IMG/VR virus record: IMGVR_UViG_3300032240_001630
Span: 1-27,271 of that record
Origin: a virus
Length of the DNA: 27,271 bases
Reading direction: 5' to 3' (one strand)
Within the stretch, counting starts at the first letter, position 1, and every line of letters begins with the position of its first letter. The notes under the pieces were generated by a model. It ran no database searches. It was not told where the DNA came from and worked only from the letters and a program-made list of their open reading frames with translations. The position numbers were made by a program, and so were the translations under genes. This document shows, piece after piece, positions 1 to 27,239 of the stretch.

Positions 1-696
1 ACTTTCTCCTGGCTGATTGGTTTTCACCGGATCAGTAGTACTCTTCATATCTATGATTAATTGTGCTAATTGTTTAGAATGTAATAACAACATCTGAATG
101 GTATCATCTGTTGCTGTTGTGTTCCTGCAGAACTTATCTATTGCCTCATGCTTAGCTACTAACATATCTACATCATTTAACGACTTAAGTGATGTGATTG
201 GTGTCAATGGATTTGCTCCCCATGCAGTAAGTGAACTACCCTCATACAACTTTATCTCAGTAATCTCATATTGTCCTAACTGAGGATTCTTAAGATAGTT
301 TTCATAGGATTGGATTTGATTTCTCTTGATTATCTTAAAACCAATAGAATGCTCTGTAATAAGTCCACTCTCAACCATCTTAATAAAATCTTCGCCACCC
401 TCATGACTTCCTATTTGTGACTCATATGCTAATCCATAACTATCTTCTGTAAGTGTCTTAATAACACCTAACGGTAATGATGGATCATGATTGAGAAGAT
501 GTTTGATTCTTGGTAATGCCGACTCAGGACCTTGCTCTCTTATTGTCTTAGTAAATGCACCTGGTCTAATTATATCACCATCAGAATCTACATTATTAAA
601 CTTAGAGAAGTAACCGGTTACAAGTCCTTGCTTAGGATTCAAATCCATTATCTCAGCAGAGAGTACTTCAGTCTTGATATTAAATATGTTGCTCAC
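1..696 (-). CDS. HK97-family prohead protease (3' end beyond window)
   Basis: Capsid maturation protease that would cleave scaffold and coat protein N-termini inside the procapsid. I translated it by hand from a GTG at 694-696. A TAA lies in the same frame a few codons upstream and no ATG lies between, so GTG is the best start; the first internal ATG is codon 17. Family signs: an N-terminal strand then GYFSKF at residues 28-33, DSDGDIIRPGAF at 37-48, the histidine motif HLLNHD around His70, the serine motif EHSIGF with Ser117, and a late WGANPLTPI stretch typical of the fold's end. The reading frame stays open to base 1, so the C-terminus is missing (232 codons visible). It follows the MuF-like gene after 38 bases, the usual place just before the major capsid gene. 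Fold and role are confident; the start is moderately so. Confidence 0.88.
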   Translation of the reverse strand, partial: MSNIFNIKTEVLSAEIMDLNPKQGLVTGYFSKFNNVDSDGDIIRPGAFTKTIREQGPESALPRIKHLLNHDPSLPLGVIKTLTEDSYGLAYESQIGSHEGGEDFIKMVESGLITEHSIGFKIIKRNQIQSYENYLKNPQLGQYEITEIKLYEGSSLTAWGANPLTPITSLKSLNDVDMLVAKHEAIDKFCRNTTATDDTIQMLLLHSKQLAQLIIDMKSTTDPVKTNQPGES

Positions 697-4826: not shown

Positions 4827-4909
4827 ATGAATTTTGTTGAATATTCGTTCTGAAAGTAAAGTTAAACATTTTTTATTAACACCTATAAATAACGCTCAAA
4901 TCCTTTGTG

Positions 4910-4917
4910 TATCTTTG
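4910..4917 (+). promoter_or_regulatory. candidate -7 element (TATCTTTG) for the plus-strand gene
   Basis: TATCTTTG matches the Bacteroidota -7 consensus TAnnTTTG exactly and ends nine bases before the ATG at 4927. No TTTG is at the expected -33 distance, so the promoter would be partial. If used, the transcript would have a leader of only about 4-6 bases, close to leaderless. Confidence 0.45.
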
Positions 4918-4926
4918 TTACAGCCT

Positions 4927-5859
4927 ATGAAAACACTTTTAACCTTACTCAGCCTGAGTTTCAGCCTGTGCATATCTGCACAATGCACTGATATCTATGG
5001 TTCTAAAGTTGACTGCCCAACTGAAGAAGATAGCCTAATACTTTACAATAATGCCATAAAAGTAGTACAGTTCTATGACAGCAACCGTTCATATCAGCTA
5101 ACTAATAGCATTGAACTGGAGACTAAGTCACAAAAGCAAGACATATTTGAGCAACTTAAAGAAGCTCGCAGAATGTTTAATATCATCAGACGTGAGCTTG
5201 CAAACATAAGTGAAGCTGAGAAAAAGTTCACCGCAGGTAAACCTAAGCCAGGTTATAAGGATATATCTTACAAAGATTACTATCAAGAAGTTGATGAGTA
5301 CCGGTTCTATCAACGTGAGCTGGAGAATCAGATTATAAATGCAAATGCTCAGATGCCCATCTATGATAATCGTATTGCTCCCATCCTAGTTAATACTTAT
5401 CAGAACTATGACACATCATCAATATACTTTGGTGACCTAGTACAATTGCCTTTATATGTACCTGTAGTAGTTAAGCCATTTGCACTGCTTACTGGTCCTG
5501 AACTGATGCTTAGAAATAAGGTTCTTAAGTTACCTGCTCCAAAAGTTTATCCAACTAGATCAATGGTTAAACGTGATTCTACACCTCAGCCAAATTATAC
5601 TCAAAAGAATATAATTGAGCAGAAAAACCCATTATTATATCCTTCTGCATATAAATTACCAGTTTACTATTATAATCAGTATGGCTCAGCCTGTGTTATC
5701 GGTTTTATGATTGGTCACAAGTTTAAGAAGCTAACCCATGAAGAATATTCTAACTATGCTGTTTCTACGTTTGCACGCAATCTATTGGCAGATGATATAT
5801 TACTGGATAAACAGTTAAAATTAAAGTTTGGAAAATATTACGAAGGATTGCTCCAATGA
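4927..5859 (+). CDS. exported protein of unknown function (moron candidate)
   Basis: The only convincing plus-strand gene. The frame is open from an ATG at 4834, but I choose the ATG at 4927 because it begins a clean signal peptide: MKT, a leucine-rich core, then CISA before Gln-Cys, which fits signal peptidase I cleavage before Q as is common in Bacteroidota. The mature part (about 290 residues) has a charged, coiled-coil-like helical segment around residues 60-150, a proline-rich stretch, and a C-terminal part with PVYYYNQYGSACVIGFM. I recognise no family. Its orientation is opposite to every neighbour, it has its own promoter-like element, and it overlaps the converging 87-residue gene by 22 bases. 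This is the profile of a moron expressed independently of the phage programme, perhaps acting in the host envelope. Confidence 0.8.
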   Translation: MKTLLTLLSLSFSLCISAQCTDIYGSKVDCPTEEDSLILYNNAIKVVQFYDSNRSYQLTNSIELETKSQKQDIFEQLKEARRMFNIIRRELANISEAEKKFTAGKPKPGYKDISYKDYYQEVDEYRFYQRELENQIINANAQMPIYDNRIAPILVNTYQNYDTSSIYFGDLVQLPLYVPVVVKPFALLTGPELMLRNKVLKLPAPKVYPTRSMVKRDSTPQPNYTQKNIIEQKNPLLYPSAYKLPVYYYNQYGSACVIGFMIGHKFKKLTHEEYSNYAVSTFARNLLADDILLDKQLKLKFGKYYEGLLQ

Positions 5860-9689: not shown

Positions 9690-10932
9690 CTTTCTTAAAA
9701 TATGATAGTGTATAATTTTTTTTGTTTGTTACTGCTTTGTATATCCAATCCTCAATACCACCTTCAGCAAATACCCAGTGTACTTCTGCAGTTCTAGTTC
9801 TGTCCTTACTTTGTAATCTTGCTCTAACTTGGAAATAAGTAATGGCAGAGAAGTCAATATTAATGCAGATTAAAGCATCAGCACTGGATAAGTTAACACC
9901 TTCACGACCACTTACGAACTGAGAGATATAAATGCATGATATATCAGTCATATTGAACTGTTCTGCATCATTAGTGACTGATAAACCATGCATTTTGCAC
10001 GCTACTTCTATCATTATTGCCTCAGCTCTGAATTTATAGTAAATGGCTATTTTGCGCCCCTTAAACTTGTCTAGCACCCATTTTACTTTTGTATCATCTA
10101 GTATTAGGCCATCGTTGATCTCTGTTCCCGAATCGAATAATACAGTGCCTGAGTAAAGCTGATGTAATTTATTGAGAAGTTTGACCTCTGTGTCAGCCTC
10201 AATAACTTGGCCATCTTTACCGGTGACAACTTTGTCAATCCGTAACCTATTTGCAATCTGATATATCTTATCAGACATCTTTACATGATGTACAGTCTCA
10301 TGTACAAGCTCAGTAAAGCCAGCCTCTTCTTGTGTGTATGGTATGAATAGATGTTTGGTTGCATCTTCTATTTTCTGTTGAATTGCGTTACTATAATCGT
10401 TTATTTTCCGATTAAAGATATATTTTTCAGCAACTATTACATAATCTTTGGCCCATTTGTAAAAGTTAGGCTCAGGGAATGGTGAGAAGCTACTGACTGC
10501 GAACTGGTGATATAGCTGAGAATAAGACTCAGGAGATGGTGTACCGGATAAATAGATAATGGGTAAGTTCTTACACAACTTCTTTAGTTCTTGTGTTCTT
10601 AATGATGCGATAGGATACTGACCTAAGCTATGAGCTTCATCAATAATAAAAATATCAGCTTTGATGTCTTTAATCTTATGTAACGATTCAAAGTTGATAA
10701 GGTAGCATTTAAAATCACCTAAATAATTTTGCAAGTAATCCATCTCAACTGATGACATGGCTTTCTTTTTTGTCACAAATATTGCAACATTTGCCCCATA
10801 CTTCTTAACCGTCTCAAAAGCAGTAATGGTCTTACCAGTGCGCACCTGCATATTCAGATATGCAATTTTGTATTGTTTTAGCAATTCACAAGCTGCAGAT
10901 GATATGTCTATTTGGTATTGTCTTAGTTCCAT
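9670..10932 (-). CDS. SF2 (DEAH, SNF2-like) DNA helicase
   Basis: ATP-dependent DNA helicase or translocase. The 420-residue protein begins with a Q-motif-like LRQYQ, motif I VRTGKT (residues 30-35), motif II IIDEAH (96-101) and motif III LSGTPSP (128-134). The second RecA-like domain has SQFVSGREGVNLSSAD (motif V region) and ARLQSKDRTR (motif VI arginine fingers). The protein is compact and has no extra nuclease or zinc domain. It overlaps the genes on both sides by 10-20 bases. It probably serves replication or recombination with the nearby SSB-like protein and nuclease. Confidence 0.93.
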   Translation of the reverse strand: MELRQYQIDISSAACELLKQYKIAYLNMQVRTGKTITAFETVKKYGANVAIFVTKKKAMSSVEMDYLQNYLGDFKCYLINFESLHKIKDIKADIFIIDEAHSLGQYPIASLRTQELKKLCKNLPIIYLSGTPSPESYSQLYHQFAVSSFSPFPEPNFYKWAKDYVIVAEKYIFNRKINDYSNAIQQKIEDATKHLFIPYTQEEAGFTELVHETVHHVKMSDKIYQIANRLRIDKVVTGKDGQVIEADTEVKLLNKLHQLYSGTVLFDSGTEINDGLILDDTKVKWVLDKFKGRKIAIYYKFRAEAIMIEVACKMHGLSVTNDAEQFNMTDISCIYISQFVSGREGVNLSSADALICINIDFSAITYFQVRARLQSKDRTRTAEVHWVFAEGGIEDWIYKAVTNKKNYTLSYFKKDEKKMD

Positions 10933-19177: not shown

Positions 19178-21487
19178 CTAATTTTCATAAAGGTAATTAA
19201 ATTCATAAAGCCTATTTCCTTTCCATATTCTATATTGAGGAATAATACCATCTACAAATTCAGTCTCAGCTCCATTTAATAACTCGTAAAGTGACAAATC
19301 ACAATTTGCATTTTTATAATCAATTGTAAGCTTACCAACAACAAATCTGAATGAATTAGGAGTTATAGAATTTACAAAGATTGATAATGGTGTAACAAAT
19401 TTATAAGGACCATTACCTTGCAATACTTTCAAATAACTTCCTTCATATTTTGCTCTTGGTCTATATCTCGTAAATAAATATTCCTGAGTAGTTGCTTGAC
19501 CTAAGTTATCATATGTAAATACATCAATAGGAGGAAGTACAACAAATGCTGGATAACCCCAATCATTAGTTATATCTCTAAGTAAATTAGTATAACTGGC
19601 AATATATAAACTGCCCTTTATAGATTGTCTTGGAGAATTATCTAAATAAATATCTTCAGAACTATTATTTTTTATTTCTAATGATTGTGAGTCTGTATGA
19701 GTATGTCCTATAATTTTACCTGAATTATTTATTAGATAAGTAATATTAAAAGTTAAATCTTTGTATAAAGTTTCATCAGCTGAAGGAGTACCACCATTAG
19801 GAGTAGCCTCAGCTAAATAAACATTAACAATACCATCAATAGGAGCTGGATTAGAAATAATATTAACACTTTGCCAATCTAAAGTATTAGCTCCTGCAGG
19901 AGTTGAATATGTGAAACCTAAAGTAGTAGCCCAAGAACCATTATTATGTATAAAATATGTTGTAGTTCCATCTGTAATTGATACTACAAAAACATTATTT
20001 ATTGGACCTGCTTGACTAACACTTGTTCTAAAACTAAAATCAAATTCTATTGAATCTCCTTTAGATAAAGGTATATCACAACTTTTTATTGATCTTGCTG
20101 AATCACCAGTAGCATTTACAACAATAATATTTCTATCTAATTCTTGCTTATAAGTTCTTGATGTAGGATCATTATCATAAGTGATTCTAATAAATCTATC
20201 TGGAATAGGTGAATAAGGTCCATCAAACCAACTATTTAATACATATTCTTTTATTGTGTATAATCCTGAATCATATTGCTGAATTAATGGCCCTAAATCT
20301 TTAGCATTAGAATTACATAATAAATTATCAGGCTGAATATAATTAAATGTCTCTTTAACATACTTATATGGCCTTACAATTGATTTAATAACACCAGTCT
20401 CCATGTCTGAGCCATTCATGAAAATAAAGTCAGAAGTATTGGCTGTATAACCAATTCTTGTGAATGACTCATCATAATAATTGCCTCTTATTGTTGCACC
20501 GGTTCCAGTTGTATAACGATATAACTCATCCCATCTAACCAATGTCCAAGTAGCATTAGATTGAAATAATGAGCAGTTAAATCTTGTCATTATCTGATCT
20601 AAAATATCGTAACAAGTCATCCAGCTATTAGTATCTACTCTAAAAGTTGATGCATCTACAAAAGTATCATCCCATGTGCTTTCAACTGTTCCACCAACAG
20701 GAAATATAGTAATGAAAGAATTAAATGGTATTTCCAATAATGTTGATTTTAAACACAATTTTAAAACATCAATCAATGAGATATACCCAACTAATGGATA
20801 TGGTATAGTATATACAAAATCAAATGTAGTTGGACTATAACTAAAAGTAATAGGTCTATCACATAATACAATCCATCCTGCAGAAAGAACATAAGTAATG
20901 CCTAAACATACAAAATTATAAGTAGTAGTACCATTTACTAATTGGAATGCATCACCAGGTTTAAGTACTGATATTCTTGAATCAAAAGAAGAAAATGAAT
21001 TACCAAAAAATACTGGACTAACTTTTTGTGCAATCAATCCACTTTCAGTTGTAGGTACAGTTGTAATTACTGCAGCTCTATCTAATGTTATATCCTTAAG
21101 TATTCCTAATCCATCTGTAAAAGTCAATTTTATCTCATGATTAAAATCTAATTGTATTTCAGAGCAATCATCTTGTAATAAATAACCTTTGAATAAAAAT
21201 TGATCAGTATTAATACATTTAAACTCAACATAGAAATAACTGTCATCTTCAGAATAGAAATTTGTTAACCTTACGCCAGTTGAATTAGTAATTATAGATA
21301 CGTTCAAAGTACAACCTCTAATAGGAGTATATGGATCATCTTCTTGCCATTCTTGAATAACAGGATTAGCACTCAATAAAAGTTCTGATACTGCACCTGT
21401 ATAACCCTTCTGATAAATGTCTACCTGGTAGCTTTGTAATGGCTTAAAACTATCAAACTGTGATGTATATTTTATTCCGTATGACAT
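19178..21487 (-). CDS. large distal tail / baseplate protein
   Basis: A 769-residue structural protein following the tape measure, the position of distal tail (Dit) and tail-associated (Tal/hub) proteins. The N-terminal 130 residues (GIKYTSQFDSF, YQVDIYQKGYTG, then RGCTLNVSII and FYVEFKC) form strands like a tail-tip ring; the centre is long and strand-rich; the C-terminal part has TTQEYLFTRYRPRAKYEG. No lysozyme or peptidase motif was recognised. Its stop lies five bases before the next gene's start and its ATG overlaps the tape measure's last codon. The family is common in Bacteroidota siphophages but is usually unnamed, so the specific role is inferred from order. Confidence 0.72.
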   Translation of the reverse strand: MSYGIKYTSQFDSFKPLQSYQVDIYQKGYTGAVSELLLSANPVIQEWQEDDPYTPIRGCTLNVSIITNSTGVRLTNFYSEDDSYFYVEFKCINTDQFLFKGYLLQDDCSEIQLDFNHEIKLTFTDGLGILKDITLDRAAVITTVPTTESGLIAQKVSPVFFGNSFSSFDSRISVLKPGDAFQLVNGTTTYNFVCLGITYVLSAGWIVLCDRPITFSYSPTTFDFVYTIPYPLVGYISLIDVLKLCLKSTLLEIPFNSFITIFPVGGTVESTWDDTFVDASTFRVDTNSWMTCYDILDQIMTRFNCSLFQSNATWTLVRWDELYRYTTGTGATIRGNYYDESFTRIGYTANTSDFIFMNGSDMETGVIKSIVRPYKYVKETFNYIQPDNLLCNSNAKDLGPLIQQYDSGLYTIKEYVLNSWFDGPYSPIPDRFIRITYDNDPTSRTYKQELDRNIIVVNATGDSARSIKSCDIPLSKGDSIEFDFSFRTSVSQAGPINNVFVVSITDGTTTYFIHNNGSWATTLGFTYSTPAGANTLDWQSVNIISNPAPIDGIVNVYLAEATPNGGTPSADETLYKDLTFNITYLINNSGKIIGHTHTDSQSLEIKNNSSEDIYLDNSPRQSIKGSLYIASYTNLLRDITNDWGYPAFVVLPPIDVFTYDNLGQATTQEYLFTRYRPRAKYEGSYLKVLQGNGPYKFVTPLSIFVNSITPNSFRFVVGKLTIDYKNANCDLSLYELLNGAETEFVDGIIPQYRIWKGNRLYEFNYLYEN

Positions 21488-23163
21488 TATGTAGTGCGAC
21501 CATAAGTCTGGCCATATTTTTTATTGCTGAAATAAATATCTTGACCTCTAAGCATTCCAAATACCTCAATTTGTCCTCCAATTCCTCCCATCATTTGTGA
21601 TGTTTGTGCTGCAGGTATTACCTGAGAACCACGAGGCAAATTAATCATCTCTGGTCCTCTCTCACCCACTAAAGCCATACCACCAGGAGCATAACGTGTA
21701 CCAACTGCAAATCTTTGCTTAGATGTTGTTTTTTGAATGGCTGATCCTAATGCTGCTAAAGCAATACCTACAGCTATTGCTGCGAATGGATTGATTAAAA
21801 TATTATTCAAAGCTATTTTTGCTACAAGTGCTAAAGTACCAATTTTAATTAATTCCTTACCAAGTGATTCTATAACACCACCAAGAGCATTAAAAACACC
21901 TCTAAATGCATCTCCAAATGAAATACCACCAGTGATAGCTTGACTTAATATACTAGCAAATGAATTACCAATACTAACTGCAGAATCTTGTAAAAAACTT
22001 TCTATTGCATTAGTTATTTCAATTAAACCTGTTTTAGCTGGAAGAAATTTAATAGGTAGTTCTACATATTTTGGAAGAGTAATCTTAGATAAATCTTTAG
22101 CAATTTGGTCTTGTATCTTTTTATCTGAAATTACTATTGGTAAAACCTTAACCGGTTTGAATTTTAACTCACGCTCAAATGCTGGTTGATTCTTTTTTAA
22201 CTCATCTAATCTTCTCTGTTCAGCTGCTCTTAATGCTTCAAGTTTTAGCTTAGCTATTTCAATGTTCTGATAATATCCATAATAAACATCTCTTTGCTTA
22301 GCAACTGCTTTAGAAGCATCAATGACATTTTGTATGTAAGCTTTTTGCTCATCAGTAAAACCACTAAGATTAGCTGAACTAACATTTGTTAAATCACCTA
22401 ATTTAGAAACTGCATCAGCAAATTTATTTGTAGAATCAAATGAACCTTGTTGAGTTTGAGTAAATGAATATAAAGCTGCTTGAGCATCGTTAAGATCTTT
22501 CTTAGCATGTTGAAACTCTATGTTAGCTGATGCCTGCTCATACCCTAACTGTGTAATATCTAATTGTGCTAACTTAACATCAGTTGTGAATCCTTTTCCA
22601 AACTGAATATCAAATTTTAGTGTTTGATATTCTTTAATATAATTAAGTTGAGTCGTAAGAGTCTTTAAATCATCACCTAGATATTTAATATCAGATGATA
22701 AGTTTCTAGTTGATTCATCCATTGAATCAATAGAACTTTTAGCTGTACCACTTCCTCTTGTCCATGCACTGAATCCAATCTGAGCAAATGTAATGGCTGT
22801 AGTAACTGCTGCAAAAGCAAGTGATAAACCTGCTGGACCAGTTAAAGCTCCTATTAAATTATCTTTTAAAGAACCTCCTGTTGTTGCTGCTTCTTTTTTA
22901 GCATAACCTAATGAATCAATAAATGGCTGGATGTTATTTGCAATACCTATAAAACCATAAGCAGAATCTGAGACTATTCTGCCTAAATTGGTAACAGCAT
23001 TTGATGCTGCACCAGTTGAAGCTTTTAAATCATTTCCTAAAGCTTTGCCAGCCTTTGTTGCTGCTTCAGATGTCTGAGTTAAAGATTTAGCTGTACTATC
23101 TAATGCCTTATTTACTTGGTCAAATCCAACCGCTGACGCTACTATCTTTATATCTTCAGCCAT
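21487..23163 (-). CDS. tail tape measure protein
   Basis: Determines tail length and is ejected ahead of the DNA. The 558-residue protein has an Ala/Lys/Ser-rich helical N-terminus (SVGF-like start, then long coils with KSLTQTSEAATKAGKAL), hydrophobic membrane-active segments at about 107-125 and 440-475 (LALVAKIALNNILINPFAAI part), a coiled middle, and the classic C-terminal block RYAPGGMALVGERGPEMINL then PRGSQVIPA. At about 1.5 angstrom per residue it predicts a short tail of roughly 80-85 nm. The gene starts eight bases before the end of the frameshifted chaperone gene, the standard order. Confidence 0.93.
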   Translation of the reverse strand: MAEDIKIVASAVGFDQVNKALDSTAKSLTQTSEAATKAGKALGNDLKASTGAASNAVTNLGRIVSDSAYGFIGIANNIQPFIDSLGYAKKEAATTGGSLKDNLIGALTGPAGLSLAFAAVTTAITFAQIGFSAWTRGSGTAKSSIDSMDESTRNLSSDIKYLGDDLKTLTTQLNYIKEYQTLKFDIQFGKGFTTDVKLAQLDITQLGYEQASANIEFQHAKKDLNDAQAALYSFTQTQQGSFDSTNKFADAVSKLGDLTNVSSANLSGFTDEQKAYIQNVIDASKAVAKQRDVYYGYYQNIEIAKLKLEALRAAEQRRLDELKKNQPAFERELKFKPVKVLPIVISDKKIQDQIAKDLSKITLPKYVELPIKFLPAKTGLIEITNAIESFLQDSAVSIGNSFASILSQAITGGISFGDAFRGVFNALGGVIESLGKELIKIGTLALVAKIALNNILINPFAAIAVGIALAALGSAIQKTTSKQRFAVGTRYAPGGMALVGERGPEMINLPRGSQVIPAAQTSQMMGGIGGQIEVFGMLRGQDIYFSNKKYGQTYGRTT

Positions 23164-23799
23164 CCGTTTTCATTTTTATATTGTGACGCTTAAGAATTGC
23201 TTCATAACGCTCTTGTGTCATTGGTTCAATCTTCTTTTGTTCTGGTTCATCACCAGGCATAGGCCAAAATCTTTCCAATGATCCAACTGCTTTACTACCA
23301 GCCATACTTTCAGCTATACGAAAGGAAGCAAACCGAATGACTTTCGCCTGTTCAGCTTGCTTCTCTAAATATCCTTCAACTGCTGCATAAAACTCAATGG
23401 GAAGAGAAGTATAATACTGATAAGCTGACCAACCAAGTTTACCTAGAGCGAACTTGAGATTGTCGTAACATTGTTCACTTTTTTTTTCTCTTCTTCTATC
23501 TGTTCACCAGCTTTTACAAGATTCTTCCAAACCTGCGTTGATGTTAGTACTTCAGTAACTTTAGTTATAGCATCATTTTTATTTTCCATCTCATCTACCC
23601 AATCACATACTTCTTCAAATGTGTAATCAGGTTCTTCTCTCTTCACATAACTGTTGCCCATTAGTCCACCATAAATCATGGCATACATAAAAGCTGAATT
23701 TGTACTATTATCATTATGCGTTGATATAATCTCAATCGCAAGTTGATTAAACTTTAAACCCCTTAACTTTCCGCCAATTTCTAATTGTAGATAACTCAT
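23156..23799 (-). CDS. tail assembly chaperone, -1 frameshift (G-T type) product
   Basis: Long form of the chaperone. The upstream frame reads through residue 107 (KKK), then a -1 shift on the nine-A run at 23479-23487 opens 107 further codons that end at TGA 23156-23158. I translated this part by hand: SEQCYDNLKFALGKLG, then SLPIEFYAAVEGYLEKQ, AKVIRFASFRIAESMAGSK, LERFWPMPGDEP, and a final helix with TQERYEAILKRHN. The stretch has no ATG near its start, no stop codon, and protein-like composition, so it is unlikely to be translated alone. This matches the lambda G/GT arrangement found before tape measure genes of siphophages and myophages. The total is about 214 residues, and the 3' end overlaps the tape measure start by eight bases. 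Confidence 0.85.
23443..23799 (-). CDS. tail assembly chaperone, short (G-type) product
   Basis: The 118-residue unshifted product. It begins MSYLQLEIGGKLRGLKFNQ, has helical segments (FMYAMIYGGLMGN, EVCDWVDEMENKNDAITKV) and ends EEKKKVNNVTTISSSL and TAG. In lambda-like systems this product is made in excess over the frameshifted form and the two coat the tape measure while tube subunits assemble. It sits between the tail tube genes and the tape measure, as expected. The slippery A run lies 11 codons before its stop. Confidence 0.88.
   Translation of the reverse strand: MSYLQLEIGGKLRGLKFNQLAIEIISTHNDNSTNSAFMYAMIYGGLMGNSYVKREEPDYTFEEVCDWVDEMENKNDAITKVTEVLTSTQVWKNLVKAGEQIEEEKKKVNNVTTISSSL
23479..23487 (-). 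promoter_or_regulatory. slippery sequence for -1 ribosomal frameshifting
   Basis: Minus-strand codons are GAG AAA AAA AAA GTG. The run of nine A contains the X XXY YYZ heptamer A AAA AAA in the zero frame, followed in the -1 frame by AGT GAA CAA. The zero frame ends 36 bases later and the -1 frame is open for 107 codons. Homopolymeric A stretches also allow polymerase slippage, so either mechanism may apply. Confidence 0.82.
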
Positions 23800-23820: not shown

Positions 23821-24702
23821 TTAAAAATATCTTGCTGCGTAAACTTTTAATATAACAAATTTATTAGTTGCTGTAGGAAAACCTGTAAAATCATAAGCAA
23901 ACGCATTATTAACTGGATCGCCAGTATTATCTTCAGCTGAACCCCATATATCATTTAGATTTGGCAAATATGCACCACAATAAAATAATTCATTTAGTAC
24001 AGGCATAAACCAATCTGTAAAACCTCCTGCCGTATAATTTGAACACAATTCAGCTGCCGAACCTACTGCAGAAATTGAAGCCATAATAGCTTGTGTATTT
24101 GCATATCCATCTCCATAAGCAGCAGTTGTACCTCCTACATAATCTGCTGTTGTTGACCATGCCATACTAGCTAATGGAGTAGTATTATTTAAAATCAATC
24201 CATGTAAACCACTTCCATCTATGTAAGCAATATATCCACCACCATAAGCTTGACCTATAGTAAATGGACTTGCACCATAAATAGTTATTGTTGGAGTGCC
24301 ATAAGGCATAATTGCACCAGTAAACTTACCTACAGAATCATAAGCATATGTACTACTTAATTCAGACAAAAAACCAGTACCTACTTGTATTTCATCTCCA
24401 TTAATTGGTATTTCAGGAGATATCTTCCAACCAATGGTTTGTTCAGCATTTAACAAAATTCTTAAATCAGTACCACTAATTCTTCCACCATTAGGATCTT
24501 GCAAATGTTGACCTTCAAAAGTATAAGATATCTCTAAAGCACCAGGTGATTTATCTGGACCACAAGCTGACGAAGCATCTACTGTACCAACAGTCATATT
24601 TGTACCTACACTTGTAAGACATACAACCATATCATAGTTAGTGCCTCCATTAGGATCTATAAAAAGTAGCATATTGCCACCTTGTACTTTATGTTCTGCC
24701 AT
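23821..24702 (-). CDS. tail tube paralogue with C-terminal Lcl_C/DUF1566-like domain
   Basis: A 293-residue fusion. Residues 1-143 repeat the neighbouring tube protein with about 105 of 143 positions identical by hand alignment (shared MAEHKV, VDASSACGPDKSPG, FEGQHLQDP, TIGWKISPE, LSSTYA). Residues about 145-293 resemble the Lcl_C (formerly DUF1566) pattern: GGGYIAYIDGSGLHGLIL, GDGYANTQAIMA, AGGFTDWFMPVLNELFY, IWGSAEDN and a terminal VLKVYAARYF. Domains of that family are surface-exposed and thought to bind ligands. The likely role is a minor tube subunit that displays a decoration domain along the tail, comparable in principle to the Ig-like domain on lambda gpV. It lies two bases downstream of its paralogue. 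Confidence 0.8.
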   Translation of the reverse strand: MAEHKVQGGNMLLFIDPNGGTNYDMVVCLTSVGTNMTVGTVDASSACGPDKSPGALEISYTFEGQHLQDPNGGRISGTDLRILLNAEQTIGWKISPEIPINGDEIQVGTGFLSELSSTYAYDSVGKFTGAIMPYGTPTITIYGASPFTIGQAYGGGYIAYIDGSGLHGLILNNTTPLASMAWSTTADYVGGTTAAYGDGYANTQAIMASISAVGSAAELCSNYTAGGFTDWFMPVLNELFYCGAYLPNLNDIWGSAEDNTGDPVNNAFAYDFTGFPTATNKFVILKVYAARYF

Positions 24703-24704
24703 TA

Positions 24705-25136
24705 TTAAGCTTGAATAGTGATAACTGGAGTTCCGAATGGTTGGAATACACCGGTAAATTTACCTACTGAATCAAAAGCATATGTACTGCTTAACTCAGA
24801 AAGATAACCAGTACCTTCTTCAATCTCATCACCAGTTACAGGAAACTCAGGAGATATCTTCCATCCAATTGTAGTCTTAGCTAACAATAATTGACGTAAT
24901 GATGTACCTGAAATCTTACCAGTTGCAGGATCTTGCAAATGTTGACCTTCAAAGCCATAAGATAATTCAATTGTACCAGGTGATTTATCTGGACCGCAAG
25001 CTGATGAAGCATCTACAACAGATACTGTTGCTGATTTACTAACTTGTGTTAAACATACAACTGTATCGTAAGTTGTACCACCGGTTGGATCAATGAACAA
25101 TAACATTGTTCCACCTGCTACTTTGTGTTCTGCCAT
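24705..25136 (-). CDS. major tail tube protein
   Basis: A 143-residue protein forming, by inference, the tube of the tail. It starts MAEHKVAGGTMLLFIDPTGG, continues with short strands, VDASSACGPDKSPG and LSSTYAFDSVGKFTGVF, and ends PVITIQA. Glycine/threonine-rich strands and its length fit an undecorated tube protein. Its place between the tail terminator candidate and the chaperone gene supports the call. A paralogue with an added domain follows immediately, so the virion may mix both. It is preceded by an A-rich leader (TATAAAAATTAAAATAAA). Confidence 0.82.
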   Translation of the reverse strand: MAEHKVAGGTMLLFIDPTGGTTYDTVVCLTQVSKSATVSVVDASSACGPDKSPGTIELSYGFEGQHLQDPATGKISGTSLRQLLLAKTTIGWKISPEFPVTGDEIEEGTGYLSELSSTYAFDSVGKFTGVFQPFGTPVITIQA

Positions 25137-25155: not shown

Positions 25156-25581
25156 TTATGAAATTACGAAAATATCTTGTTTAAATATAATTATTCTTGT
25201 AATAAATATTTTATTTGCAATCTCTCCAAATCTTTCTGTTCTGTCAGTCTGTACTGATAAATTCATCATTTGTAATCCAAAAGAATTTAAATCCAAAACA
25301 GAATTAGATGTTGGCTTAATAGCTTGATAAATTTGATTAGCGACATCATTAAGACTCTTAACATTATTGTATTTATATTCCCAAGAATTAATGTTTATTT
25401 GAATGGTAGATTGTAAATCTGATGAATTATCTGTTGAAGTTTCATTTGATACGATATCATTCAAAACTACATAAACCTTATTCTTTACATCATCTGGTTC
25501 TTCGCCAGCAAATACAGGAATATTTAAACCATCAATGATTTCAAAATAAGCTTGCAATAACGCACTATTTACATCTTTCAT
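25156..25581 (-). CDS. tail terminator / tail completion protein candidate
   Basis: A 141-residue alpha/beta protein: N-terminal helix NSALLQAYFEIID, then IPVFAGEEP and KVYVVLNDI, central strand IQININSWEYKYNNVKS, helix DVANQIYQAIK, and C-terminal strands. This order matches small tail-terminator (gpU/DUF3168-like) proteins that cap the tube and join it to the head. Its place after a gp10-like protein and before the tube gene is the expected slot. It overlaps the previous gene's stop by four bases. Confidence 0.72.
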   Translation of the reverse strand: MKDVNSALLQAYFEIIDGLNIPVFAGEEPDDVKNKVYVVLNDIVSNETSTDNSSDLQSTIQININSWEYKYNNVKSLNDVANQIYQAIKPTSNSVLDLNSFGLQMMNLSVQTDRTERFGEIANKIFITRIIIFKQDIFVIS

Positions 25582-26110: not shown

Positions 26111-26692
26111 TTAATAATATAAAACTGTTGCTACTTCTCCATCAATAAATGGTAACCCCCAAGTCATCTCCCCATTATTATCATTATAAAGTACTTGCTT
26201 ATCTACTGGTGTACCACTGGTTATAATTACAAATTGAACGCCATCCTTAAACGCATTAAATAAATGACGTCCTATAAAATTTGGATTAGTGAAATTAGTC
26301 TCACCACCGATGCCAGTGTAATTATAAACTTGTATTGTATTCAAATCCATTGGAGGTTCACTATTTACTGATTCATCTAATTTAATTGCCAAAACATATT
26401 CCCAATATAAATTCCCTTCGTTCCTTAATTGTAAGCTATAAACTTTATAGAATTGATTCTGATATGCTATAATATCATTGCTCTGCATTGGTCTATCTTT
26501 CTCATATCTAAAAATAAACACTTGATTGTATGACCACTCATGCTGTTGATAATCACTTCTTGATATACCAACCCTTTCACGCACTTCTGCCCATTTTGTC
26601 CAGTTACCAGTCTCAATAGGAATAAGGCCACCAAATTCATTCTTAGCTGCAGTATATCGATAAATTGTAACCCTTCTATTAAGTTTATACAC
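26111..26692 (-). CDS. head closure / head-tail adaptor protein with C-terminal extension
   Basis: A 193-residue protein. Residues 1-115 follow the head-tail adaptor pattern: LNRRVTIYRY, KNEFGGLIPIETGNWTKWAEVRE, a strand FIFRYEKDRPMQSNDIIAYQ and the closing YWEYVLAIKLDE. Residues about 118-193 form an added strand-rich domain with GRHLFNAFKDGVQFVIITSG, VDKQVLYNDNNGEM and a final GEVATVLYY; the family normally ends near 110 residues. The start is GTG (26690-26692), overlapping the connector's last codons; no ATG is available before the conserved N-terminus. The added domain may decorate the neck. Confidence 0.8.
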   Translation of the reverse strand: MYKLNRRVTIYRYTAAKNEFGGLIPIETGNWTKWAEVRERVGISRSDYQQHEWSYNQVFIFRYEKDRPMQSNDIIAYQNQFYKVYSLQLRNEGNLYWEYVLAIKLDESVNSEPPMDLNTIQVYNYTGIGGETNFTNPNFIGRHLFNAFKDGVQFVIITSGTPVDKQVLYNDNNGEMTWGLPFIDGEVATVLYY

Positions 26693-27239
26693 GTCTATAT
26701 GGATTTAGTAAATTCTTTGCTATTGGACTAATCTGATCTGTTGCCTGACTTCTATTGTCATACAAATAATAAATCTGATTTAATAATGCTGTCTTTAAGA
26801 TAGCAGGTAATACAGTATAACCAGTAATATAATCAATAAGAATATTTTTAGCTCTCGGTGACTGGAGTCTCTTGAATTGGTACCCAGAAAGAGAATAAGA
26901 AATATCAAGAATAAGAATATTACCATTTTGATCAGTAACTTGATTAATTGCTTGAAGTGGTCCGTAAGGTAAGTAAATATCTCCATTGATATTGTTTAAG
27001 GTAGCAACGGCATTATGAACAACAAATCCTACTCCAGTATAAGCTTCACACATTAATCTTGCTGCTGTTATAAGTGATATGATAAGATTATCATCAGTAC
27101 CGATATCAATCTTACAAAAGTCTTTAGCCTCTACTAATGTAACCGGTTCAATAATATCATCATGATTAAATACAACATCTAATACAGAATTATAACCCAC
27201 TCCTTCCCAATTATACAATTCATCGTGATATAAATTCAT
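26685..27239 (-). CDS. head-tail connector (gp6-like)
   Basis: A 184-residue protein of the HK97 gp6/SPP1 gp15 connector group. VTLVEAKDFCKIDIGTDDNLIISLI at about residues 33-57 (helix with the characteristic D-D-x-x-I), ARLMCEAYTGVGF, a strand-rich middle with YLPYGPLQAINQV, FKRLQSPRAKNILIDYITGY, and a closing helix LKTALLNQIYYLYDNR then NLLNPYRRV, the family's usual ending. It binds the portal and starts the neck. The major capsid gene would be expected just upstream, outside the window. It overlaps the next gene by eight bases. Confidence 0.88.
   Translation of the reverse strand: MNLYHDELYNWEGVGYNSVLDVVFNHDDIIEPVTLVEAKDFCKIDIGTDDNLIISLITAARLMCEAYTGVGFVVHNAVATLNNINGDIYLPYGPLQAINQVTDQNGNILILDISYSLSGYQFKRLQSPRAKNILIDYITGYTVLPAILKTALLNQIYYLYDNRSQATDQISPIAKNLLNPYRRV

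Follow-up and report, generated by a model that had tools for sequence, protein, structure and literature searches.

A duplicated tail tube gene with an exchangeable C-terminal domain in an uncultivated group of siphophages

Introduction

Phage tail tubes are usually regarded as uniform polymers, and genomes with two or three "major tail" genes have been flagged as odd by annotators. The question of what a second tube gene could be kept for is raised by the IMG/VR record IMGVR_UViG_3300032240_001630, which is analysed here over its whole length of 27,271 bases (the window). In this record, two adjacent genes encode similar tube proteins and only the second is extended by an additional C-terminal domain. 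The reading favoured here, to which a probability of about two in three is given, is that a non-contractile tube would be built from plain and decorated paralogues, with the projecting C-terminal domain of the decorated one displaying a surface-binding module along the tail. In an uncultivated phage group, the second tube gene may have been retained to serve as a docking platform; exchangeable docking subunits of this kind could explain other phages with several major tail genes.

Two adjacent tube genes in a siphophage tail module

The two genes belong to a siphophage tail module on the minus strand that follows the usual order of head-tail adaptor, head closure, Neck1, tail terminator, first tube gene, second tube gene, chaperone-like gene and tape measure. 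The features needed here are the following:

25156..25581, minus strand, tail terminator (phrog_176, E 4.9e-7)
24705..25136, minus strand, plain major tail (tube) protein, 143 aa, Lys87 (phrog_1407, E 3.2e-7; orthologues at every surveyed locus)
23821..24702, minus strand, decorated tube paralogue, 293 aa, Glu87 (105 of 141 positions identical in the plain copy; a tube fold and a C-terminal domain in the AlphaFold2 model)
24280..24702, minus strand, tube half of the decorated protein, residues 1-141 (residues 7-144 of the model align with the tube proteins of 80alpha, monocin, SPP1, GTA and lambda)
23824..24279, minus strand, C-terminal display domain, 152 aa, predicted Lcl_C/DUF1566 fold (8q4e, Z 12.4; family profile E 3.6e-14)
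23443..23799, minus strand, tail assembly chaperone-like gene (position, and homologues in the related loci L009, L011 and L012)
21487..23163, minus strand, tape measure protein (phrog_19914, E 6.9e-10)

The location of the tube genes between the tail terminator and the chaperone and tape measure genes is that expected of a siphophage major tail protein. The decorated copy also matches the "major tail protein" profile phrog_1407 (7.4e-6), and the two proteins align by BLASTP with E 3e-78 and 74% identity, many residues being invariant across both copies. The preliminary description of this DNA, made from the letters alone, had proposed two adjacent tube genes of which only the second is extended, and the positions, the identity and the length of the extra domain bear this out. 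Both genes are complete, each with its own start and stop codon, and thus differ from the single gene with a translational frameshift known from SPP1. The decorated gene begins 2 nt past the plain stop codon and has no leader of its own. Since the boundary of the DNA repeat, at 24280, coincides with the start of the extra domain, the duplication covers the tube half only. The predicted structure of this half is a beta-sandwich with a flanking helix and a long beta2-beta3 loop, as in siphophage tube proteins; it matches those of lambda, 80alpha and monocin in Foldseek with E of about 2e-5 to 5e-5, and the 80alpha protein (6v8i) with a VIA Z of 10.1. Residues 38-54 of the decorated protein are modelled as a low-confidence loop by AlphaFold2.

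Some further features of the record were noted. Between the tube and tape measure genes, the minus-strand frames 23156-23503 and 23443-23799 overlap, and within the overlap nine consecutive A precede a G (a plus-strand T run at 23479-23487), an arrangement resembling the programmed frameshift by which tail assembly chaperones of the lambda G/GT type are made. The low-coordinate end of the window (1-696) is broken within a prohead protease gene and the opposite end opens with the head-tail adaptor (26685-27239). As the major capsid gene is missing between these ends, the record probably stems from a circular or permuted genome that was opened at this gene. Among genes of appreciable size, that at 4834-5859 is the only one of its neighbourhood on the plus strand; it lies between terminase and replication genes, and its 341-aa product has no Pfam match.

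The C-terminal domain of the decorated protein

The second protein contains all four landmarks by which the preliminary description had recognized an Lcl_C-type domain. Searched alone, the C-terminal domain of the window gave no Pfam match, and the assignment came from a homologous set together with structure. In particular, 16 of 21 aligned homologous display domains, the window's included, match PF07603 (Lcl_C, DUF1566) with E values of 0.1 or lower (the lowest 1.2e-8), and the family profile built from the 21 finds the crystal structure 8Q4E, which is the C-terminal domain of Legionella Lcl (PMC11162425). The last 150 residues of the whole-protein AlphaFold2 model (pLDDT mostly 83-93, but about 64 in two blocks) align to the same structure over 117 of 131 residues with an rmsd of 3.0 and 25% identity. 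A structure prediction without this fold had been named in advance as evidence against the proposal, and the fold was found; by profile and prediction, the display domain is thus assigned to the C-type-lectin-like Lcl_C/DUF1566 fold.

The fold and sequence family are therefore those of Legionella Lcl-CTD (8Q4E), whereas the setting is different, as Lcl is a bacterial adhesin that forms a trimer on a collagen stalk and binds glycosaminoglycans through a lysine-rich surface (PMC11162425). This surface is missing in the window domain, which contains 3 Lys+Arg and 11 Asp+Glu (net -8), too few basic residues for Lcl-like glycosaminoglycan binding, which was ruled out. The basic patch characterizes L. 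pneumophila Lcl, but other Lcl_C domains need not have it (PMC11162425), and, as it is absent here, the ligand of the window domain cannot be predicted from Lcl. All complete display domains of the group are strongly acidic whatever their fold, with few Lys or Arg and a net charge of -6 to -20; this shared acidity is accounted for by none of the explanations offered here.

Domains of this type also bring to mind diversity-generating retroelements, in which a C-type-lectin-like target is hypermutated by a reverse transcriptase, since in Bacteroides phages both DUF1566 and Fib_succ_major are known to serve as such targets (PMC8143477). No reverse transcriptase (PF00078) was found in 28 partial contigs (the window and 27 relatives), in a search whose positive controls worked, and no template/variable repeat pair was seen in the window. 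On these grounds the display domain was rejected as a retroelement target, the least probable of all the readings considered.

Distribution of the gene pair and exchange of the added domain

The preliminary description had also proposed to compare single and double tube genes among related phages. IMG/VR scans combined with a tube profile yielded 76 distinct gene arrangements, and in 46 of them a plain tube gene stands beside one or two longer paralogues (three tube genes in four: L003, L010, L057 and L079). The plain gene is alone in about 30, a split that is approximate because some contigs end close to the gene. Chance and assembly errors are excluded as sources of the pair by its recurrence in dozens of independent metagenome contigs. 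The decorated gene starts between 2 nt (window) and 13 nt (relatives) past the plain stop codon; where it is absent, as in L009, L011 and L012, the chaperone gene directly follows the 3' end of the plain one. The decorated gene is thus dispensable, since about 30 of the 76 arrangements have none. In L079 (2330-4692) the plain gene is flanked by a decorated copy with He_PIG and Lcl_C on its upstream side and by a Fib_succ_major-like copy on its downstream side. L012, which has no decorated tube gene, encodes a second, very diverged tube-like protein (9924-10358; 145 aa, 27.8 bits) about 4.5 kb downstream of the plain tube gene, past the large tail protein.

No convincing relative of either tube protein was found by tblastn among 50,697 isolate phages, and a scan of GTDB genomes gave no prophage copy from which the host could be read. 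Judged by structure, head-tail adaptor and tube profile, the isolate that comes nearest is Cellulophaga phage phi12:1. This phage has a single tube gene; the host of the window phage may belong to the Bacteroidota.

The added domain differs widely among the relatives. Lcl_C is the commonest class, and the others include a 105-aa Ig-like domain, He_PIG combined with Lcl_C, Fib_succ_major (PF09603, E 1.4e-31), PKD/LRR-like domains with weak PKD similarity, BspA-type LRR_5 and short tails of 26 aa. The 105-aa domain is modelled confidently (pLDDT 93), and its best matches reach a Z of only 8.4, spread over Ig- and cadherin-like chains, so that the name Ig-like is tentative. He_PIG, Lcl_C, Fib_succ_major and LRR_5 are families typical of surface-exposed proteins.

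These classes are exchanged within otherwise conserved genes. L024 and L036 are 85% identical at the DNA level upstream, 84% in the plain gene, 84% in the decorated tube half and 91% downstream, whereas their display domains are unrelated (Fib_succ_major versus Ig-like). Similarly, L071 and L078 are 87-93% identical throughout except in the domain, which falls to 68% in DNA and 49% in amino acids. Conversely, L024 and L027 have in common a domain that is younger (dS 0.08) than the tube half (dS 0.50). In a wider tree, the display classes are intermingled within the main decorated clade. The C-terminal domain is thus replaced by unrelated domains, which is cassette exchange; the added domain is an exchangeable cassette across a whole phage group, a pattern that was beyond the sight of the preliminary description.

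A structural function of the extra domain, in stiffening the tail or stabilising the virion instead of binding, has a precedent in the Ig domain of lambda gpV, which touches the neighbouring subunit and whose removal lowers activity 100-fold (PMC8718954). Such a function is a poor fit to the swapping of entirely different folds at the same place and to the many phages without any extra domain, and is considered improbable.

Divergence of the two paralogues

The history of the two copies was followed in a careful tree of 81 tube domains, from which outlying long-branch paralogues were left out. The decorated tube halves all fall on one side of a branch with support 98/90, the single exception being L083. 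The wider tree agrees (97) and adds a more distant set of longer paralogues and a recent re-duplication in L080, on account of which duplication probably occurred more than once. On these trees, most longer copies appear as one old clade. Purifying selection on the decorated tube half is strong (dN/dS 0.05-0.20 over ten pairs), which marks it as a functional tube subunit rather than a copy in decay.

The fixed differences between plain and decorated proteins cluster at residues 7, 10, 79, 82, 87 and 88, with residue 87 the strongest: it is Lys in 74 of 74 plain proteins and Glu in 34 of 36 decorated proteins of the main clade. When the copies are paired by locus, the Lys/Glu combination occurs in 35 of 45 pairs; the remainder mostly involve the outlying paralogues, and a few outlying longer proteins do not have the Glu87 signature. 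Plain genes with and without a decorated partner are separated by no strong position. In the AlphaFold2 model, the contrast positions fall in the N-terminal stretch and around the junction between the helix and the next strand. In the tube protein of YSD1, N-terminal loops are subunit contacts, and an inserted domain at the equivalent junction (helix-beta4) extends to the next subunit in the ring (PMC8718954). By this correspondence, a role of the contrast residues at subunit interfaces is plausible.

If so, plain and decorated subunits could be non-interchangeable partners in a patterned hetero-assembly, in which residues 87, 7, 10, 79, 82 and 88 would set the places and the cassettes would stand at fixed spacing. 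This extension of the favoured reading is tentative, and we hold the odds to be somewhat against it. Owing to the Lys/Glu contrast, two small proteins would suffice for a direct test of whether mixed tubes are ordered or random.

The same charge swap, with the differences at residues 7 and 10, suggests non-equivalent contacts and could also point to a decorated paralogue confined to one specialised ring, at the tail tip as a Dit-like hub or below the terminator, where the domain would act as a receptor-binding or adaptor module. Tube-fold proteins serve as tip and terminator proteins in siphophages, and such chains are among the structural matches. The high identity to the plain subunit, with many residues invariant in both copies, speaks against this reading, and so do the distinct terminator and large tail-tip genes present besides both tube genes; moreover, the loci with three tube genes and different domains (L003, L010) would require several special rings. 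A single specialised ring is thus unlikely, although it is the strongest of the competing explanations.

The decorated copy could, finally, have no virion function, being a transient by-product of recombination that is poorly expressed or not incorporated. The plain tube alone suffices in the arrangements that have no second copy, and the tight junction without a leader in the window would fit poor expression. The low dN/dS of the tube half, the old clade with fixed differences and the persistence over dozens of contigs are against this. In addition, the decorated tube half of L083 has the peculiar residues of its own plain copy, yet the decorated-type residues D79, I82, E87 and W92 of the helix segment are kept, which suggests that selection holds this segment. 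A functionless duplicate is therefore very improbable.

Comparison with known tail tubes

Tubes with subunits of two lengths are known. In SPP1, plain gp17.1 and C-terminally extended gp17.1* are reported to occur at 3:1 and the FN3 extension is dispensable (PMC8718954, PMC7666168). The window phage likewise has plain and C-terminally extended tube proteins, but from two genes with diverged paralogues in place of one frameshifted gene, and with C-type-lectin-like or other domains across the group in place of FN3. In lactococcal 936 phages, part of the tube subunits carry the TpeX extension, which is long, carbohydrate-binding and phage-variable and binds host cells specifically (PMC6669499). 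Variability among phages is shared with the window group, and extension of part of the subunits would be; TpeX, however, arises by programmed frameshift from one gene and always has one BppA-like fold, whereas here gene duplication and several folds are found. The tube proteins of lambda (gpV), T5 (pb6), YSD1 and JBD30 share with the window protein the tube fold and a projecting C-terminal domain, but they are encoded by single genes, and every subunit is decorated, with Ig-like domains only. In the portions of the HFTV1 and JBD30 literature consulted, two different tube proteins are not described.

Several paralogous major tail genes are also present in actinophages, such as Microbacterium phage Damascus (gp17, gp19 and gp20) and Rhodococcus phages Peregrin, Grayson and Weasels2. 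Damascus gp19 has 609 aa with a long extension, gp17 is 51% identical to gp19 and 42% to gp20, and no Pfam domain was found in Damascus. For Peregrin and others, the authors state that it is not known whether all major tail proteins are in virions (PMC13313380). Tail proteins and hosts of these actinophages are unrelated to those of the window phage, and the descriptions of them consulted here contain neither paralogue specialisation nor domain exchange. Duplicated tail genes were thus noted earlier, without an explanation.

The claim of novelty in the preliminary description stands in part. A duplicated tube gene with an Lcl_C-type domain was not found described in the literature covered, which takes in only a minority of subscription papers; two-length tubes (SPP1, lactococcal 936 phages) and duplicated tail-subunit genes (actinophages) were already known. 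Within the same literature, three features appear to be new: Lcl_C and Fib_succ_major as domains of a tube subunit, a dedicated paralogue on which unrelated domains replace each other, and conserved residues that tell the paralogues apart.

A possible working of the mixed tail tube

Indirect support for a single tail of plain and decorated subunits comes from the purifying selection on the tube half, the old and conserved paralogue split and the precedents above. Both subunits would enter the same tube, polymerising around the tape measure, with the plain copy as the majority subunit. The plain gene has its own conserved A-rich leader, of a kind that occurs in Bacteroidota; as the decorated gene starts so close to the plain stop codon, it is plausible that less of the decorated product is made. 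The projecting domains may then bind host-surface or matrix ligands weakly and repeatedly, and many such contacts would hold the virion near the cell until the tail tip engages its receptor. A cassette swap would retune this binding and leave the tube itself untouched. With two tube genes, and an added domain that is exchanged among relatives, the tail shaft is probably an interchangeable rack for surface-binding modules. By the rule of 1.5 A per residue, the tape measure of 558 aa corresponds to a tail of roughly 84 nm, or 21 rings.
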